A stretch of DNA of 37,032 bases from positions 1-37,032 of IMG/VR virus record IMGVR_UViG_3300050821_016542, one strand, 5' to 3'. The notes under the pieces are model-generated. The model searched no databases. It saw nothing but the letters and a program-made list of their open reading frames with translations, and was not told where the DNA came from. The DNA is from a virus. The position numbers were made by a program, and so were the translations under genes. Shown in pieces: positions 8,775-36,417 of the stretch (the first letter of the stretch is position 1; each line of letters begins with the position of its first letter).

Positions 8775-9032
8775 ATGATTAATTATATAAACCTAAAAAA
8801 TGAAAAGGGGCTATCTTTTGCTGGAAACCCCCTTTTCCCACACACACCCAGGAGTATTTGGATGCGCATGTTTTATTCTACCAAACAGTTTATTTTCTTG
8901 TCAACCATTATTTTAAATAAAGTCACAATTTATTTAAAACAAAATAAGAGAATTCTATCTTACGATTTAGTTCTCTTCAAAGATAAAAAATTACTAACAA
9001 TCATAACAAAAACCGAAGGAATAATAGTATGA
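8775..9032 (+). CDS. hypothetical protein, 85 aa
   Basis: A basic protein (MINYINLKNEKGLSF...) with a hydrophobic, beta-like middle (FIFLSTIILNKVTIYL) and a C-terminal KKLLTIITKTEGIIV. AAGGATGTTGAAAA precedes the ATG. Its stop overlaps the start of the Rep-like gene, which argues for coupling and against a random frame. It may be a leader that sets Rep translation. No family recognised. Confidence 0.5.
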   Translation: MINYINLKNEKGLSFAGNPLFPHTPRSIWMRMFYSTKQFIFLSTIILNKVTIYLKQNKRILSYDLVLFKDKKLLTIITKTEGIIV

Positions 9033-10570
9033 TTACCAGTGCATTATCTTTAAGTAAGGAAATAGTTAATCCCCTTACTCACCTTAATAGTATCAAAGAA
9101 TTCTTTATGTTGGCTAGTCCTATTTTAAAAGAATTGTCTGCAAGCAATATTTCCTCCACTGCAAAATCATTATGGAAAGTAATCTTAGACCTATCTAAGA
9201 AGACAAAATCTCTAACTTGTTCCTATGCGCGATCTGCTCTAGCTAAAATGATTAATCGGTCAGTAAGAACAGTGACAACATTAGTAGCTGAATTAGAAGA
9301 TCATGGCTTTTTGAATGTTAGCCGTGGTTATGCTAGTCCCACCAGAAGGAGAATAAATGTCTATCATATAACCCTCCCTCAATATTTGATAGAAAAGGTT
9401 ATGCAAGAGCCTAATAGAAAGAAAAAGTTTCAAACTAAACAAAGGAGCGATGCCATGGAAAGGCTATGCACTAATGATAATTCATCCTCTATTTATGCCC
9501 CCTCCCCCCTTGAAGAATATAGTCTCCATGATAAGGATGATAGTGCAGAAAACTGCACTATAGATAAGAAAGAAGATCTTAATAACAATAACAACCTAAC
9601 AGATAACCCCAACTCCATTTCTGTTCCTATTTCTGTGTGTGTTAAAGAATTTAACGTTTTCGAGTCTCAGGGATTACTTGTGTATGTAAAAAGCCTAGTT
9701 AATGCACAATACCCAGAAATCCTTGATTTTATGGATGCCATCAAAAATCAGTTTGAATCTGGAAAATATGAACTAATAGAAGAGATTAAAGTTAAATGTC
9801 AAAAAATTGGTGAATCAAGGAAAGAATTAGAACATATTAAAGAGCATGAATTCCATAATATGAATAAAATAATGCCATTAACTATTAAAGAAAGAATTTT
9901 ATGCGAAGAAAGAAATAGTATCTTGGATTATAAAGATGAATTAGACAGCATGATAAAAAATTCATCTTTTATATATGTCCTAACAGTTATTTTCAAGAAG
10001 TACGAACAATACAAACACTTCTATGGCGAGAAGAAAAAGATAAGTGCTAACAAATCATCCTACTTTGAAAACAGAGAATCTAATAGCGAATATGAACAAG
10101 TAGAGCAAGCTGAAACAATGTGTAGCGTCATATTAAGTGAAATCAAATCGGATATTTCAAGACATCAAATCAATGCTAAATTAGCATTCTTTTTGAAAGA
10201 CCCATGCTTTGTAGGACATGATTTACGTGTTCACGATCCAAAGATACCTAAGAACATATTGAACAGATATTTTGAACAAGTTCAAGAAATTATAAAAGAT
10301 GACACGGTATATGAAATTTTCAACGAGATGGCAGCTTCCGTGAGATTTGGTGAGCTTTCACGATGTAAAGATGAAGAAGGACGAATTAGTTTTATAAAAG
10401 GTTTTAATGTGGCTTTAAAGCTTCTTAGGGAAGGACGATGGACAACGCCTAAATGTGTATCGGTAGTATTAGAGATGATTCCATATTCTGAATTGAAGGT
10501 TAATATTAATGGTATTTCATTGTTCGAGGATGTGAATCGTCAACTAGATAGCATGGGATTGTCAATTTAA
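9029..10570 (+). CDS. winged-helix replication-initiator-like protein
   Basis: A 513-aa protein. Residues about 60-130 form a winged helix of the HTH_36 type seen in plasmid and phage Rep proteins: LTCSYARSALAKMINRSVRT, VTTLVAELEDHGFLNVSRG and a basic hairpin SPTRRRINVYHITLP. A low-complexity Asn/Asp linker (residues 150-200) follows, then a long helical C-terminal region without a visible Walker motif, so it is not a helicase. No other replication gene is recognisable, so this is the best candidate for an initiator that recruits host DnaA/DnaB. Translation is coupled to the previous frame. Confidence 0.7.
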   Translation: MITSALSLSKEIVNPLTHLNSIKEFFMLASPILKELSASNISSTAKSLWKVILDLSKKTKSLTCSYARSALAKMINRSVRTVTTLVAELEDHGFLNVSRGYASPTRRRINVYHITLPQYLIEKVMQEPNRKKKFQTKQRSDAMERLCTNDNSSSIYAPSPLEEYSLHDKDDSAENCTIDKKEDLNNNNNLTDNPNSISVPISVCVKEFNVFESQGLLVYVKSLVNAQYPEILDFMDAIKNQFESGKYELIEEIKVKCQKIGESRKELEHIKEHEFHNMNKIMPLTIKERILCEERNSILDYKDELDSMIKNSSFIYVLTVIFKKYEQYKHFYGEKKKISANKSSYFENRESNSEYEQVEQAETMCSVILSEIKSDISRHQINAKLAFFLKDPCFVGHDLRVHDPKIPKNILNRYFEQVQEIIKDDTVYEIFNEMAASVRFGELSRCKDEEGRISFIKGFNVALKLLREGRWTTPKCVSVVLEMIPYSELKVNINGISLFEDVNRQLDSMGLSI

Positions 10571-11331: not shown

Positions 11332-11415
11332 TTTTCTAAAGATTTTACAAAATAATCAAAATTATTTCAAAACTTATAATTATAAATGAATGGTAAAGAA
11401 GATAATTTTATATGC

Positions 11416-11487
11416 CTCCCCGAGACAGATTCGAACTGCCGACCCAATGGTTAACAGCCATACGCTCTACCACTGAGCTACCGGGGA
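11416..11487 (-). tRNA. tRNA-Asn (GUU)
   Basis: The minus strand folds into a full cloverleaf: acceptor TCCCCGG paired with TCGGGGA (one G-T pair), D arm GCTC/GAGC, anticodon loop CTGTTAA giving GUU, five-base variable loop and T arm GGCAG/CTGTC with TTCGAAT loop. The discriminator is G, as expected for Asn. CCA is not encoded. It is antisense to the direction of the surrounding genes. Confidence 0.95.
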
Positions 11488-11525
11488 ATGATCGATATTA
11501 TAAATAATAGTTTGACTTAAGGTCA

Positions 11526-12275
11526 ATGTTTAAGATGGAAAAGAATATGCATGACTTCGAGCTGAAAAACATAGAAGGGTTTGATATAAACAATTTTAAG
11601 CAGATTAATTTCATTGTGGGTAAGAATGGGGTGGGTAAATCTCTTTTTATTGATCGTTTAATTAAAGCTTATAATGATGGTTTATTTCCTTTTTATAACA
11701 GAGCTAAAGTACATTTTCGTCCTCATAGGTTTGCCATAGACTACGGCCCCATTTGTATTATTAAGTCATATCTTCCTGATTTAAGTTCAATGGTGAAAAA
11801 ATGTATTAATGACTTAGTAGAAGACTTTGATAGCAAAGAAGTTGTTAAATTGGTAGACGACTCTTTAAAATTCTTTTTAGAAAATGAGGAATGTTTCTTA
11901 AACCATTATAATGAGAAGTGTTTATTAGACTATTACAATCATAATAAATTTATATTCAATTTATTATGTAACGTATTTTTTAGTAGTACACAAACTATAT
12001 TTATTTCAGAGCCATTCGATTCTATATTTCATCATTCTATCCTACAGTTTGTTGCTACACTTATTTATTGCATTATATCTGTAGAACCTAATTTAAAATT
12101 TATTTCTATCACTCAAAGTCATGACTTAATTAATCAATTTTGGGTTGCTTTACAAAGGCACGGAGATGTACTTGGATTGCACCGTCTTGAAGAAATAGAT
12201 GGAAAACTCTGCATGGTCAGCTTTCCCAAAGATGAGCTTGATACTGCCATGGAACTAAACTGGGAAGTTCGGTGA
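11526..12275 (+). CDS. SMC/ABC-type AAA ATPase (AAA_15/AAA_21-like)
   Basis: A 249-aa protein with an N-terminal strand ELKNIEGFDINNFKQINFIV leading into a Walker A motif GKNGVGKS (about residues 33-40). Near residue 160 TIFISEPFDSIFHHSILQF stands where family members have a Walker B plus Asp-box (IDEPE..LHP); the expected Asp is Ser in ISEP. An H-loop-like ITQSHD follows. The lid and coiled-coil arms are very short. Such ATPases occur in OLD-like nucleases and many mobile-element systems; no nuclease domain is attached here. It is not ParA, which would have KGGVGKT. It precedes the parS palindrome directly. Confidence 0.75.
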   Translation: MFKMEKNMHDFELKNIEGFDINNFKQINFIVGKNGVGKSLFIDRLIKAYNDGLFPFYNRAKVHFRPHRFAIDYGPICIIKSYLPDLSSMVKKCINDLVEDFDSKEVVKLVDDSLKFFLENEECFLNHYNEKCLLDYYNHNKFIFNLLCNVFFSSTQTIFISEPFDSIFHHSILQFVATLIYCIISVEPNLKFISITQSHDLINQFWVALQRHGDVLGLHRLEEIDGKLCMVSFPKDELDTAMELNWEVR

Positions 12276-12303
12276 ACCCCTGTGTATCTGTGCATGGCGT
12301 GCG

Positions 12304-12321
12304 ATGTTCCACGTGGAACAT
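12304..12321. promoter_or_regulatory. perfect chromosomal-type parS site
   Basis: The 18-bp perfect palindrome ATGTTCCACGTGGAACAT contains the 16-mer TGTTCCACGTGGAACA, which agrees with the bacterial chromosomal parS consensus TGTTYCACGTGRAACA bound by ParB. It is intergenic, 28 bp after the ATPase gene. No ParA or ParB gene is visible on the genome, so the obvious ligand is the host ParB (inference). Confidence 0.75.
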
Positions 12322-12325
12322 TTAG

Positions 12326-12376
12326 CTAACCGAATTCAGCTAGCGTTCGGTTAGTAGTTACCCGAATTCGGCTAAC
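12326..12376. repeat. two adjacent palindromic elements centred on GAATTC
   Basis: CTAACCGAA and TTCGGTTAG (12326-12354) form a 9-bp inverted repeat around an 11-base spacer. GTTACCCGAATTCGGCTAAC (12357-12376) is a 20-bp palindrome with a single mismatch. They lie between the parS site and the next gene and resemble the palindromes on the far side of that gene. Confidence 0.7.
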
Positions 12377-12426
12377 TTACTATTGACATTTTTAGAAATT
12401 GTATAAAGCATTAATAATGGGAGAGA

Positions 12427-12816
12427 ATGATGTCCCACGTGGAACCTATTCATTTATTAAGCGCAGACCTTGGAATAGAGAAGCGTATCAAAACATATGC
12501 ATGGCATACTTCAATAGAAGAGCTAATAGATATGTATGAATATGGACAGCTTGTTATACCTGATGAGTATAAAGAACGTTCTATCATAATAAAACCTGAG
12601 TTCACCAAAGCTCTAATAGAAGGGCGTGTAACTATTCCTTATATGTGGGTTTCTCTTCGTAGAAGAGAAGGAAAGTGGGTACTTGAAAAAGGTATAGAAT
12701 TATTTTTAATAATTATTGACGAAGTGTCTTTGAATGGAAAGTCTAAGTTTAAAAATAAAAAATGCTATGTAGATAAAATAGAAGAAGAATGGGTGACCAT
12801 TTTATATTTTTATTGA
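12427..12816 (+). CDS. short DUF262 (ParB-like-nuclease clan) relative, degenerate
   Basis: A 129-aa protein. Residues 25-85 follow the DUF262 N-terminal pattern: TSIEELIDMYEYGQLVIPDE, then a charged turn, KALIEGRVTIPYMWVSLRRR and EGKWVLEKG. Family members continue with a DGQQR catalytic-type motif; here EKGIEL takes that place, so the active site looks lost. Full DUF262 proteins are several hundred residues long, so this is a stand-alone fragment. GGGAG precedes the two possible ATGs. A parS-like sequence covers codons 2-7. A 36-codon frame overlaps its end. Similarity was judged by eye and is moderate. Confidence 0.6.
   Translation: MMSHVEPIHLLSADLGIEKRIKTYAWHTSIEELIDMYEYGQLVIPDEYKERSIIIKPEFTKALIEGRVTIPYMWVSLRRREGKWVLEKGIELFLIIIDEVSLNGKSKFKNKKCYVDKIEEEWVTILYFY
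12431..12446. promoter_or_regulatory. parS-like site overlapping the start of the DUF262-like gene
   Basis: TGTCCCACGTGGAACC differs from the parS form TGTTCCACGTGGAACC by one base. It lies over the start codon region, where bound ParB would block translation or transcription of the gene. Confidence 0.5.
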
Positions 12817-12899
12817 CTAATGCTTACCAACAAAATCTTGATGAAAGACACTTTGATGAAATAAAGGTTAAGTTTAAAGTTCCAATCAAGAAAAATTAA
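12789..12899 (+). CDS. possible 36-aa frame at the end of the DUF262-like gene
   Basis: A frame starting MGDHFIFLLTNAYQQNLDER overlaps the last codons of the previous gene in another frame. The ribosome binding site is weak (AGAAGAAG). It could be a small gene, or the former C-terminal end of the DUF262-like protein split off by a frameshift. Either reading is uncertain. Confidence 0.3.
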   Translation: MGDHFIFLLTNAYQQNLDERHFDEIKVKFKVPIKKN

Positions 12900-12909
12900 T
12901 AGCTTATCT

Positions 12910-12933
12910 AATTCCCCCGAATTCGAGGGAATT
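12910..12933. repeat. 24-bp palindrome with CGAATTCG core
   Basis: AATTCCC and GGGAATT flank CCGAATTCGA, whose centre CGAATTCG is itself palindromic. No T run follows, so an intrinsic terminator is unlikely. It is part of the palindrome cluster on both sides of the DUF262-like gene. Confidence 0.65.
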
Positions 12934-12968
12934 AAGGGTCGTCCAATTATGCGTGAAACTTTATACAA

Positions 12969-12984
12969 TGTTTCACGTGGAATA
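12969..12984. promoter_or_regulatory. parS-like site 3
   Basis: TGTTTCACGTGGAATA matches the parS consensus with one mismatch at position 15. The half-site GTGAAAC occurs again in inverted orientation at 12953-12959, giving an extra GTGAAAC/GTTTCAC dyad. Confidence 0.5.
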
Positions 12985-13082
12985 TCGAACTGTCCGGTAA
13001 TTCCGGTTAGTTGGAATATTGAACTATCGAGTAATTCTCGGTAGTTGGAACATTTTAAGTTATCCGGAAATTCCGTATAACT
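12979..13082. repeat. three tandem 34-36-bp hairpin units with compensating changes
   Basis: Units at 12979-13012, 13013-13046 and 13047-13082 each start GGAA(T/C)AT and contain an arm, an inner stem and an AATT loop. Unit 1 has AACT..CCGG-TAATT-CCGG..AGTT. Unit 2 has AACT..CGAG-TAATT-CTCG..AGTT, so the inner stem changed on both sides and still pairs. Unit 3 has AGTTAT.CGG-AAATT-CCG.ATAACT. The first unit overlaps the parS-like site. The array is iteron- or centromere-like, or a structured leader of the next gene. Confidence 0.8.
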
Positions 13083-13108
13083 GAATTTTGAACAGTAAAG
13101 GATATCTT

Positions 13109-13270
13109 ATGAAAGATGGAAAGCTACCTATTTTAGGAAAAAAAGAAATGGATCTAATTATTTATGACAGATTTGGAGATCATCGATTAATACATACTAT
13201 AATTGGAATATATGAAGATAATAAAGATATTGTTATAAAAGAAATAAAAGAATCTAAGTTAGATTCATAA
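13109..13270 (+). CDS. hypothetical protein, 53 aa
   Basis: A small charged protein (MKDGKLPILGKKEMDLIIYD...) predicted as beta strands plus a C-terminal helix. The frame stays open for seven codons upstream to a TTG, but AAAGGATATCTT just before the ATG supports this start. It directly follows the three-hairpin array, so its translation might be influenced by it. No family recognised. Confidence 0.6.
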   Translation: MKDGKLPILGKKEMDLIIYDRFGDHRLIHTIIGIYEDNKDIVIKEIKESKLDS

Positions 13271-13288
13271 GATATGAAAGGAGAAGCC

Positions 13289-13489
13289 ATGGAAAATTTA
13301 ATTTCAAATGAAATAAGAATTAAGATGAAAGTTACTATTGATATTCATTATGAATCATTAAATACAAAAGAAAGTACTGTTTATTTAATAGAAGATGACG
13401 ACATTCAAAATACTATCTTAGAGATATTGTTCTCACGGAAATCAGGATTGCCTTATAATTGCCATATTGATAAAGTATCAAAACGTTAA
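13289..13489 (+). CDS. hypothetical protein, 66 aa
   Basis: A small soluble protein (MENLISNEIRIKMKVTIDIHY...). AAAGGAGAAGCC before this ATG makes it the likely start rather than the in-frame ATG that overlaps it. A beta-rich N-terminal half with alternating hydrophobics is followed by an acidic patch and a basic end. It resembles the next gene in size and strand pattern (both have a ...VTIDI/...IEIEI strand near the start), which may mean a remote duplication. Confidence 0.6.
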   Translation: MENLISNEIRIKMKVTIDIHYESLNTKESTVYLIEDDDIQNTILEILFSRKSGLPYNCHIDKVSKR

Positions 13490-13501
13490 AGGATTTAGTT
13501 G

Positions 13502-13729
13502 ATGAATAATGAAAAAATAATTAAAGAAAAAGATATTTTCAAAATAGAAATTGAGATAAACGCGTTGGTTCAAGTTGGAGAGATAGATGAATTTTATGGA
13601 TGTGAAACAGGCTTATACTCTATTCAAAAACTTATTCAAGTAATAAATTTTAAAATAGATGATAATGAAGCTATAAATCAAATTATGGAAGTCATAAAGA
13701 AATGGAATACGCCTTATTCAATAACGTGA
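13502..13729 (+). CDS. hypothetical protein, 75 aa
   Basis: A small acidic protein with an N-terminal strand (IFKIEIEINALVQVGEI) and a C-terminal helical half (IQKLIQVINFKIDDNEAINQ). AAAGGATTTAGTTG leads into the ATG, close to the leader used by several late genes. No family recognised. Confidence 0.6.
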   Translation: MNNEKIIKEKDIFKIEIEINALVQVGEIDEFYGCETGLYSIQKLIQVINFKIDDNEAINQIMEVIKKWNTPYSIT

Positions 13730-13757
13730 TAAAAAGATTTTACATTAAAGAGGTTTT

Positions 13758-14021
13758 ATGATGTTAATGCACAATCCACCCCATCCTGGGAAAGTTGTTA
13801 AGCGGATGTTGATTGGGGCTAATCTGTCTGTTACAGAGGCTGCAAAAATACTTGGTGTTGAACGAATAAGCTTATCGAAATTGATTAATCAAAAATCAGG
13901 CATCAGTCCTGAAATGGCAGTTAGGCTTTCCTTAGCTTTTAATACAAGCAGTGAGATGTGGGTTAATATGCAAGAAATGTATAATCATTGCAGGGGTGGG
14001 ACTCGAACCCACGACCTCTAG
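13758..14021 (+). CDS. orphan HigA-like XRE antitoxin, 3' end fused into a tRNA
   Basis: An 87-aa frame. Residues 5-76 follow the HigA/VapI pattern: HNPPHPGKVVKRMLIGANLS, VTEAAKILGVERISLSKLIN, then ISPEMAVRLSLAFNTSSEMW. The HTH is complete. The final eleven residues (HCRGGTRTHDL) are antisense reading of the minus-strand tRNA, so the native C-terminus (family usually about 95-105 aa) was replaced when the two came together. No HigB toxin is adjacent. AAAGAGG precedes the ATG. It may repress host or own promoters, or neutralise a host HigB. Confidence 0.85.
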   Translation: MMLMHNPPHPGKVVKRMLIGANLSVTEAAKILGVERISLSKLINQKSGISPEMAVRLSLAFNTSSEMWVNMQEMYNHCRGGTRTHDL

Positions 14022-14060
14022 GTTATGAGCCTAGCAAGCTACCGCTGCTAACACCCTGCT
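13988..14060 (-). tRNA. tRNA-Met (CAU), initiator-like
   Basis: The minus strand folds as a tRNA: acceptor AGCAGGG/CCCTGCA with an unpaired A1-A72, T arm GTGGG/CCCAC with loop TTCGAGT, anticodon arm CTAGG/CCTAG with loop CTCATAA, and variable loop AGGTC. The unpaired 1-72 position and A11-T24 pair are marks of bacterial initiator tRNA. The third mark, three G-C pairs above the anticodon loop, is only partly present (two G-C and one A-T). The D arm is odd, with one extra base before it. CCA is not encoded. Confidence 0.85.
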
Positions 14061-14097
14061 TTTGTATTATAGCATCAAGGAAGATGAAAAAGTAATC

Positions 14098-14514
14098 ATG
14101 AGTTTATTTAGAATGGAGTTGCCCTATCCTCCAAGCGTGAACAAATATTGGATATACACAAAGCATGGTAAAATAGCTTTAACAAAAAAAGTACGTGAAT
14201 ACAAAAAGGCAGTGGCGTGGACAATTAATCTATCGGAATTATTTAAGCTATCGAGATGCAATAAAACTATTGATATCCCAGTAGTTGCTATGATTGAACT
14301 TTACCCGCCGGATAATCGCGTGAGAGATACAGATAATACGCAAAAGGCCATCTTTGATGCATTGCAATATGCTTATGTCATTCAAAATGATCAACTTATT
14401 GTTGAACATCATGTTAAAATGTTTCCAAAAAAAGATGGTGAGAAAAGTAATTACATTTTTGTTGAGATATGGGATGCTAAGTATTCGGTTTGGGATAAAA
14501 TTTTCTTGAATTAA
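14098..14514 (+). CDS. rusA: RusA-type Holliday junction resolvase
   Basis: A 138-aa protein with the RusA pattern: LPYPPSVNKYW near the N-terminus, a basic KKVREYKKAV helix, and PPDNRVRDTDNTQKAIFDAL then QNDQLI, which hold the acidic catalytic residues (D.RVRDTDN and the ND pair). RusA homodimers cut four-way junctions and branched replication or recombination intermediates before packaging. The length matches the family (about 120-140 aa). The frame is open back to the tRNA; the ATG at MSLFRMELPYPP is chosen because it starts just before the conserved domain, though no strong ribosome binding site is visible. Confidence 0.92.
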   Translation: MSLFRMELPYPPSVNKYWIYTKHGKIALTKKVREYKKAVAWTINLSELFKLSRCNKTIDIPVVAMIELYPPDNRVRDTDNTQKAIFDALQYAYVIQNDQLIVEHHVKMFPKKDGEKSNYIFVEIWDAKYSVWDKIFLN

Positions 14515-14529
14515 GAGGTGATTTGTATT

Positions 14530-14733
14530 GTGGTAGGTATATTTTTTTCATTAATTGCATTAATTGCATTAATTATTCACCTAATGTTATGTTTTTTTAT
14601 TTTTTACTTTGGTTATGAGCTTTATTTTCATCAATCTTTGTCATTTTTTGAAAAAAGAATTCTTTGGTTTTTATGGCTCGGGTTAGTGTTTATGTATACG
14701 AATTTTTCAAAAGTTCATATTTCCATAAAATAG
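14530..14733 (+). CDS. small membrane protein with two spans
   Basis: About 67 aa, almost entirely hydrophobic: GIFFSLIALIALIIHLMLCF and a segment ending FYFGYELYF, then a basic turn FFEKRI and WFLWLGLVFMY. No in-frame ATG occurs before the first span, so a GTG start is assumed, with AAGAGG eleven bases upstream. Holin-like in size and topology, but the position is inside a non-lysis region, so the role is open. Confidence 0.45.
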   Translation: MVGIFFSLIALIALIIHLMLCFFIFYFGYELYFHQSLSFFEKRILWFLWLGLVFMYTNFSKVHISIK

Positions 14734-35108: not shown

Positions 35109-35777
35109 ATGGCTTTTAACCCAACAAACTTAACTTTTGGTAGAGGAATATTTAATAATTTTTCTTCTGAGAATGGCCCCGCGCAACATATTTATAGTTC
35201 TAATGATTCAATAGCACTCATGACTTCTAATGGATATTTCCCTCCATACTTTGGAACATCCTTATCAGACAATCAAAGCCAAGTTAAAGAAAATGACATT
35301 TTAGCTCTTGCCTCAAGTTCGGATAGTATTTCTTTAAGTTATTTAATTTCAAGTATCAATCCCATCATATTGAACACTTCAGCTGAGTCATATGATGAAT
35401 ATTTTGGCGTTTCTTATTCAGGTGCCAGCTCAGGAACTCTGGATATTGCTTTTTCAAGAACAGGTAATCTTGTTACCTTTTATGTTCTTTCAACAGCATC
35501 CCTTTCAACGGGAAGCGGCGGCCATTATTTATTAAATTTATCTCCTCCTAGACGTTACTTACCCGCAGCAGATTATAACCTAGGTTCTACTCCAGGAAAT
35601 GTTCTTTTGCCATGCCCATTAGTTAATGGTGTATCTGCTTTATTTGCTGATATTGTCATTAGATCACTTGGAAACATACAAATTTTTCAAATGCCATCAT
35701 CTGATTTCTTGGGGGGGGCTACCGTTACATTGCATAATTTTTCTGGTTCATATCGTGGGATTGATTTAACTAGTTAG
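35109..35777 (+). CDS. tail-associated paralog with an eight-G tract
   Basis: A 222-aa member of the four-gene family: FGRGIFNNF, SSNDSIALMTSNGYFPPYFG and a C-terminal IQIFQMPSSDFLGGATVTLH. The closest relative is the 219-aa gene at the left end, with motifs in the same order. The codons for LGGA contain eight consecutive G (35711-35718), remarkable in AT-rich DNA and a possible slippage site that would replace the last 20 or so residues. Leader AAAAAGGATTTTATC. Confidence 0.8.
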   Translation: MAFNPTNLTFGRGIFNNFSSENGPAQHIYSSNDSIALMTSNGYFPPYFGTSLSDNQSQVKENDILALASSSDSISLSYLISSINPIILNTSAESYDEYFGVSYSGASSGTLDIAFSRTGNLVTFYVLSTASLSTGSGGHYLLNLSPPRRYLPAADYNLGSTPGNVLLPCPLVNGVSALFADIVIRSLGNIQIFQMPSSDFLGGATVTLHNFSGSYRGIDLTS

Positions 35778-35799: not shown

Positions 35800-36417
35800 A
35801 TGGCTTTTATTCAAGATAATTTTATACCAAAAAGAAAAACATTCTTATTTCCTGATTTATCTTCGAGTATTTATATTTCTGATGATGGTATCAGTACTAT
35901 TTTGAGTGACGGTTATTTTCCAAATTGGTTTGGTTTGGACAATAACTCAGTTGTTCCATTAAGAGATACGCTGATGATAATGAGTACCAGTGATTATTTA
36001 GTGAAAGAATATTTGGTCATTTCAGATAATCCGGTTGGCCTTTCTATCGCAAGCGTTCCTTCTGAAACAGAGTATTTAATGGTTAATACTTCAGGTGCTA
36101 TTGTTACAAGCATGCCTATATTCTTTTACAAGAATAATGTATTCAATGTCGCACTCTTTATTATACCAGCATCGTTATCATGGACAATTACCCAACCTGG
36201 AAAAATTAATTTCAATGATTTCAGTCTGCCATCAGGATTCACCCCTGCTAATTTTCCAGTTTATTTGTCTATTCATGGTATTTATAATGGAACACCAATT
36301 TATTTTAATTTTACATTAAGTAATGATTCTCCTTATCTATCTCTTGATCATACTTTTGAAGTGGGAGATACCTTAAGTATTACCAATGCATTGACTCTTT
36401 ACACTATTGAATCATAA
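35800..36417 (+). CDS. tail-associated paralog, 205 aa
   Basis: A diverged family member: MAFIQDNFIPKRKTF start, SDDGISTILSDGYFPNWFGL signature and D.L.IMS block in the usual places. The C-terminal half differs from the first two members (YLSIHGIYNGTPIYFNFTLS). Its first eight residues resemble those of the next gene (MSFIQENFMP), so these two form a subgroup. Leader AAAAGGATTTTATC. Confidence 0.78.
   Translation: MAFIQDNFIPKRKTFLFPDLSSSIYISDDGISTILSDGYFPNWFGLDNNSVVPLRDTLMIMSTSDYLVKEYLVISDNPVGLSIASVPSETEYLMVNTSGAIVTSMPIFFYKNNVFNVALFIIPASLSWTITQPGKINFNDFSLPSGFTPANFPVYLSIHGIYNGTPIYFNFTLSNDSPYLSLDHTFEVGDTLSITNALTLYTIES

Follow-up and report, generated by a model that had tools for sequence, protein, structure and literature searches.

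The array and its surroundings

The stretch of DNA analysed here (the window) is a 37,032-base virus record that carries phage genes, among them those for the small and large terminase subunits, portal, SSB, a RecT-like protein, RusA, and a replication-initiation-like protein. Within it lie three tandem hairpin units (Table 1), which the original prediction had described by their inner stems (CCGG/CCGG in unit 1, CGAG/CTCG in unit 2) and by altered arms in the third. This description is confirmed, as all three units form a 10-bp stem with a 5-nt loop, with 8, 9, and 9 of the ten pairs being Watson-Crick. The remaining pairs are one G.T and one T.T in unit 1, one T.G in unit 2, and one C.T in unit 3. 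Units 1 and 2 repeat with a period of 34 nt and are 79% identical, and a consensus close to unit 1 has one match in the window compared with 0 expected.

Table 1. Features of the array and its neighbourhood, in positions of the window
Feature	Position	Strand	Sequence or remark
parS-like site, exact	12305-12320		TGTTCCACGTGGAACA; match to the parS consensus
Palindrome	12326-12354		CTAACCGAATTC...GTTCGGTTAG; neighbour of array, candidate only
Palindrome	12356-12377		AGTTACCCGAATTCGGCTAACT; neighbour, candidate only; pattern in 1 IMG/VR contig only
ORF, 129 aa	12427-12816	+	between parS-like sites; no family found; structure model mean pLDDT 49
parS-like site, 2 mismatches	12431-12446		overlaps start codon region of ORF 12427
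Palindrome	12909-12934		TAATTCCCCCGAATTCGAGGGAATTA; neighbour of array; unsupported as a family member by covariance model R1 (E 0.92)
Palindrome	12946-12983		directly upstream of array
parS-like site, 2 mismatches	12969-12984		separated from unit 1 by 3 nt
Hairpin unit 1, AACT..AGTT form, 25 nt	12988-13012		AACTGTCCGG-TAATT-CCGGTTAGTT
Hairpin unit 2, AACT..AGTT form, 25 nt	13022-13046		AACTATCGAG-TAATT-CTCGGTAGTT
Hairpin unit 3, outer arms exchanged (AGTT..AACT), 25 nt	13058-13082		AGTTATCCGG-AAATT-CCGTATAACT
Small ORF, 53 aa	13109-13270	+	downstream of array; no family found

Folded as RNA, the region 12900-13110 reaches -68.1 kcal/mol compared with -44.7 +/- 4.0 kcal/mol in shuffled sequences (z -5.9), and folded as DNA it has a z of -4.9; in both cases none of 200 shuffles was as good. 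The fold is one of five hairpins in a row rather than three, as it includes the two palindromes that lie closest upstream of the array. However, the window is AT-rich and contains 63 places with at least 8 of 10 pairs, so lone hairpins of such strength are not rare. For this reason, and because the T.T of unit 1 and the C.T of unit 3 are unpaired, the window units alone are thin evidence of covariation, and the case for it therefore rests on their relatives. Model R2, trained without the window, scores unit 1 at 38.8 bits (E 2.1e-4) and unit 2 at 36.2 bits (E 5.4e-4) and recovers only an 11-nt core of unit 3 (E 4.6), the weak result being due to a training set that contained one outer-arm form.

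The ATG at 13109 lies 27 nt downstream of the end of the array. The ORF at 12427 has no relatives in IMG/VR or phage records and no Pfam match up to E 10, on which ground a suspected resemblance to DUF262/ParB-fold proteins was dropped; the ORF at 11526 has no relatives in IMG/VR and none in plasmids, and the structure models of both are of low confidence (mean pLDDT 49 and 44, respectively). A DNA search of 11400-14600 among phages returned tRNA matches and no close relative of the array region, while the part analysed of the one IMG/VR contig that shares the window's terminase (L002) does not extend to the array. The host was not found by a terminase search of genome contigs, which gave a single distant locus (40% identity, Elusimicrobiales). 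Known Rfam RNAs were considered and rejected for the array, as the window has only two tRNAs and nothing comes near the gathering score in 12250-13120. Further downstream, a HigA-family antitoxin ORF (TIGR02607, E 1.3e-22; 13758-14060) overlaps at its end a tRNA-Met gene on the opposite strand, and its last residues therefore read antisense tRNA. Near the ends of the record, three ORFs look similar by eye (158-817, 35109-35777, and 35800-36417), with starts like MAF.LTLLNIGRGRF or MAFNPTNLTFGRGIF.

Dispersed hairpins and the RhuM genes

The window array belongs to a family of dispersed hairpins in which pairing is kept while the letters change. An AACT-form search pattern (AACTNNCNNGNAATTCNNGNNAGTT), which leaves only four stem pairs free, matches at least 120 IMG/VR stretches, with at least 118 copies being distinct when flanks are included. 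At least three of the four free pairs are Watson-Crick in 95 of 118 copies, and all four are in 34. The exchanged-arm pattern (AGTT..AACT) matches 83 IMG/VR stretches, giving 74 distinct copies, 60 of which have at least three of the four free pairs Watson-Crick. A 30-nt consensus was found in 124 of 50,697 phage records (including P1, P7, and lambdoid, Vibrio, Proteus, and Burkholderia phages, along with one Mycobacterium phage) and in 1,883 of 5,426 E. coli genomes. In phage P1, a single copy sits where pmgU and pmgT meet (L202, 1502-1526), and in an E. coli prophage (L346, 1501-1526) the annotation splits a DUF551 gene into two incomplete pieces, the second starting at the palindrome. Limited literature searching found no paper with the DNA strings of the family, nor one on dispersed palindromes in phages.

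When 46 copies were aligned (33 of them distinct, and 3 of the 46 being the window units), changes on both sides of the stem occur at 6 of 10 pairs, in 23 cells compared with 6.0 in shuffles; none of 500 shuffles was as high and slid controls were far lower, although the search pattern had fixed some columns and the test is free at four pairs only. It had been proposed that pairing rather than sequence is selected, and that changes on one side left uncompensated on the other would speak against this. Such changes were looked for in the relatives, and the result favours pairing, as seen in the covarying cells, in the exchanged-arm copies, and in the RhuM genes described below.

The copies are not confined to one kind of place. 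Among the matches listed, and with ORFs from a greedy caller making the placement approximate, 54 of the 118 copies are within an ORF and 48 are between ORFs, while 13 overlap a stop and 3 overlap a start. They are found in both orientations relative to genes, including between divergent and convergent genes. In a set of 155 well-paired copies, 60 are in ORFs, in all three frames (25, 11, and 24) and on either strand relative to the loop (40 and 20), and 46 lie between co-directional ORFs (18 and 28 by orientation). Mismatches on the coding strand are 18 G.T compared with 13 A.C. In 13 of 118 copies, a second hairpin of equal size follows, with its start exactly 26 nt from that of the first, usually as AACYTGTAAG-N5-CTTACARGTT, compared with chance hairpins in 1.9% of 50-bp control stretches. 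Tandem sets are therefore not peculiar to the window. The 13 loci are L083, L092, L096, L103, L121, L135, L141, L146, L147, L164, L188, L189, and L192, and the inner arm TGTAAG of this second hairpin is also present among the hairpins of RhuM genes. An intrinsic terminator was rejected, as no terminator-like site was called at the array and a T-run (at least 5 T in 8) follows 2 of 121 relatives, or 8 of 121 on the other strand, compared with a background of 5.9%.

Many of the copies inside ORFs encode peptides of RhuM (PF13310), such as SVVRKFRTTA-DGKNY and TIRNFRIVQ-EG. We assembled a sample of 65 RhuM genes by protein similarity only, consisting of 15 of 51 matching phage-collection records and 50 places in 294 genomes of one bacterial phylum (30 loci from the search output and 20 more by score order). 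Selection by protein alone removes the bias of selection by pattern, with one of the 65 (L445) being already known to bear a palindrome. In 58 of the 65 genes, at least 8 of 10 pairs form at exactly one offset, where the mean is 8.71 pairs compared with about 2.4 at other offsets; at in-frame null positions of the same genes, at least 8 pairs occur at a frequency of 0.0008. The seven exceptions comprise four genes with a 10/10 palindrome 8 nt downstream, one with a 10/10 palindrome at a different offset, where the alignment is poor, and two that have none. The four with the shifted palindrome (L436, L488, L492, and L493) are a class of RhuM genes marked by ..RKFGISEFSTKPTNFYN...

The 58 hairpins represent 50 distinct 25-mers, in which 467 of 500 cells are paired, compared with 260 on average and 302 at most when the arms are shuffled among genes. 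Their coding-strand mismatches are 9 G.T compared with 13 A.C, and the peptides that they encode vary freely (TIRKFRIV, TTEEFSVV, VVRKFRTT, TISKMEIV). Across a tree of these 58 proteins, the form of the outer arms switched 10-11 times, with at least 8 or 9 changes forced by supported branches. Palindromes of this kind cannot be produced by constraint on the protein; what the RhuM site keeps is the hairpin. E. coli RhuM matches the PADLOC candidate defence family PDC-S05 (E 2.8e-173). No solved structural relative of RhuM was found, and no paper naming RhuM appeared among the literature matches listed for RhuM with palindrome or hairpin.

The window and the RhuM genes are linked by the hairpin itself. 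The set of RhuM hairpins used for this comparison was chosen without the window, and when the 37,008 25-mers of the window were ranked against it, the top three were the three units, with 22/25 (unit 1), 23/25 (unit 2), and 23/25 (unit 3), followed by 21/25 for the next and 19/25 for the fifth to seventh. Like the window units, the RhuM-gene hairpin has 25 nt, a 10-bp stem, a 5-nt loop, outer arms of AACT/AGTT or AGTT/AACT, and the same inner-arm vocabulary. It differs in being a single copy within a coding sequence, whereas the window has three tandem copies between genes and no RhuM. A wider AACT-form pattern matches 32 places in 27 of the 294 genomes, with a reversed control pattern matching in 4 genomes. 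By-eye comparison placed 20 of the 32 at the start of a RhuM match and 12 elsewhere; RhuM is therefore the usual home of the hairpin in these chromosomes, with phages carrying it elsewhere. The idea that RhuM is also encoded by the phages in which the hairpin is dispersed was rejected, as it is present in 0 of 49 element-bearing records and 0 of 44 controls. The original prediction, made from one locus, could not see that the units have relatives in many phages and an anchor in RhuM genes.

Possible functions of the hairpin

What might the hairpin do? We favour, at a probability of roughly 40%, the reading that the array consists of three tandem copies of a hairpin that is dispersed in phages and fixed in RhuM genes, and that works at the level of DNA, where it is read in trans. 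Action at the DNA level is suggested by the occurrence of relatives in both orientations and in coding and non-coding places, and by mismatches that do not favour G.U (in small numbers); the absence of a T-run was likewise counted for DNA rather than RNA. Hence, the earlier suggestion of a cruciform-type DNA element fits better than its RNA counterpart, and the element would act where supercoiled or single-stranded DNA takes on the shape of a hairpin or cruciform.

A hairpin array in the RNA leader of the gene at 13109 (and of other mRNAs), controlling translation, decay, or processing, was the other half of that suggestion and would account for the strong RNA fold of the region and for the array stopping just short of the ATG. 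We consider it unlikely, given that relatives lie in both orientations to genes, even between divergent or convergent ones, that neither the dispersed copies (18:13) nor the RhuM hairpins (9:13) show the excess of G.U expected from RNA constraint, and that no Rfam family reaches the gathering score; a leader specific to this one gene is not supported. Nor does mutation alone, in which template switching during replication repairs imperfect palindromes and yields covariation without selection, appear at all probable. Template-switch repair can keep perfect pairing in the absence of functional selection, and it would give double changes in coding and non-coding copies alike, but it leaves unexplained the constant stem length, loop length, and outer-arm letters, the structuring of one codon position in 58 of 65 RhuM genes, and the 10/10 palindrome 8 nt further on in four of the seven exceptions. 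A partition or origin region, in which a host-type parS and palindromes would serve the segregation of an extrachromosomal prophage by host ParB, is quite unlikely as an account of the hairpins, even though one exact and two near parS-like sites (to a TGTTYCACGTGRAACA-like consensus) lie within 680 bp, compared with 0.07 sites expected, and the gene at 9029-10570 codes for a replication-initiation-like protein. At least 120 IMG/VR contigs contain the exact 16-mer, compared with 12 for a control palindrome matched in base composition, and 49 of 119 sites (among the matches listed) lie between ORFs compared with 11.6% of random points. Over the window and 33 longer contigs of the 80 listed, 0 of 34 records have a ParB_N domain (PF02195). 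On the other side, the window has neither ParA nor ParB, the match is exact at one site of three, and the 120 loci selected by hairpin (L082-L201, 1.09 Mb) show four parS-like sites with at most 2 mismatches. Because hairpin-bearing loci elsewhere so rarely have them, parS is not needed to explain the hairpins, and the possibility that phages may carry host-type parS without ParB is a separate lead. As to the predicted centromere, three parS-like sites do flank the array, but the hairpins themselves are not parS. Iterons of an origin find no clear support, the array having a 34-nt period but letters that vary while pairing is kept, and the initiator-like gene ending at 10570, 2.4 kb away. As to the parS-like sites themselves, exact pairs of TGTTTCACGTGAAACA and TGTTCCACGTGGAACA occur 23-24 nt apart in L259, L281, L309, L318, and L319, one viral contig (L315) has five exact TGTTCCACGTGGAACA sites over 11.5 kb, and a viral contig of 4,484 bases, the size of a small ssDNA phage, has one exact site (L221, 2485-2500).

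A further alternative arises from the position of the dispersed copies, which lie at mosaic junctions. When 122 element-bearing loci were compared all against all, counting long alignments and each pair in both directions, alignments touching the element were one-sided in 303 of 401 cases (76%) compared with 1,621 of 5,676 (29%) at random points of the same loci, a share that may be inflated, and an effect size that is uncertain, as the loci were chosen for element content. The alignment ends cluster 0-15 nt beyond the element. Of the 303 one-sided alignments, 75 are inverted. The homology of mEpX2 to many lambdoid phages stops at query position 397, which is the start of the element, and the Sf6 record has boundary sequences annotated in the same region. 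The palindromes could thus be recombination joints, short shared sequences at gene or domain boundaries through which phage genomes are broken and rejoined, as with lambdoid boundary sequences, the hairpin shape being either a by-product or an aid to annealing or junction resolution. This is possible, although we lean against it. The dispersed copies may take part in making the junctions. The elements overlap stops, starts, and linkers, and the window encodes both a RecT-like protein and a RusA-like resolvase. However, a joint of shared sequence should conserve its letters, and here letters vary while pairing stays; the fixed codon position in RhuM is left unexplained; and the annotated bsq4 and bsq5 of Sf6, taken with 30-nt margins, reach 6 and 7 of 10 pairs at best and have no such palindrome. 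The locus L333 gave no R2 match. Recombination joints and DNA sites read by a protein are not exclusive of each other.

Returning to a DNA site read in trans, a common reader is suggested by the arm vocabulary shared between window, phage, and RhuM hairpins. RhuM (PDC-S05) would be the best candidate for the trans-acting protein, and a natural one because the hairpin is built into its gene. Since RhuM is missing from the window and from all 49 element-bearing phages, it must, if it is the reader, come from the host, and in a phage that lacks RhuM the tandem array would serve as a binding, decoy, or false-self site for a host protein. The 12 of 32 AACT-form places away from a RhuM match count against RhuM as reader, and the host gene and the phage arrays may instead share a reader that is neither. 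A more specific version, that the hairpin is a DNA tag read by RhuM-type proteins (a candidate defence family) carrying it in their own gene, for self-regulation or as a self-mark, with phage copies, single or in tandem arrays, being decoys or false self-marks, strikes us as doubtful. If true, recognition would be coded by a hairpin, of which the reader holds a copy within its own coding sequence, and the system would be conserved across phyla.

The fixed RhuM hairpin together with the phage copies suggests an unrecognised DNA signal. Structure kept at one codon position while letters and amino acids change is strong evidence for a nucleic-acid function inside a protein gene. As the same hairpin is scattered in phages, and tandem here, a candidate defence gene is linked to a signal in phage DNA. 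The finding also provides a concrete candidate for a structured element at the boundaries within phage mosaics.

Comparison with known systems

The array resembles several known elements. Its likeness to parS lies in the three parS-like sites that adjoin it, but the hairpin units lack the CACGTG core. REP/BIME palindromes, which occur with RAYT transposases, are short hairpins, dispersed and perhaps served by a single protein family, and the present family is alike in both respects; it differs in that no tyrosine transposase was seen with it, in having a copy at a fixed codon inside a gene, and in its letters. The PeSL cassettes of T4-type phages are stem-loops at gene boundaries that are thought to help in module shuffling. 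The hairpins share the gene-boundary stem-loop with them, but have no promoter part and no terminator tail and occur in both orientations.

A parallel at the level of position is with the lambdoid boundary sequences, for which a model of recombination at short boundary sequences has been outlined (PMC3233612, PMC3029335). As there described, and as annotated for the bsq of Sf6, these are short conserved sequences at gene boundaries and mosaic junctions, and the relatives of the window units are likewise found at such junctions. In contrast to bsq4 and bsq5 of Sf6, which are without the palindrome, the hairpin family is a covarying palindrome, and one that has spread beyond the lambdoid phages.
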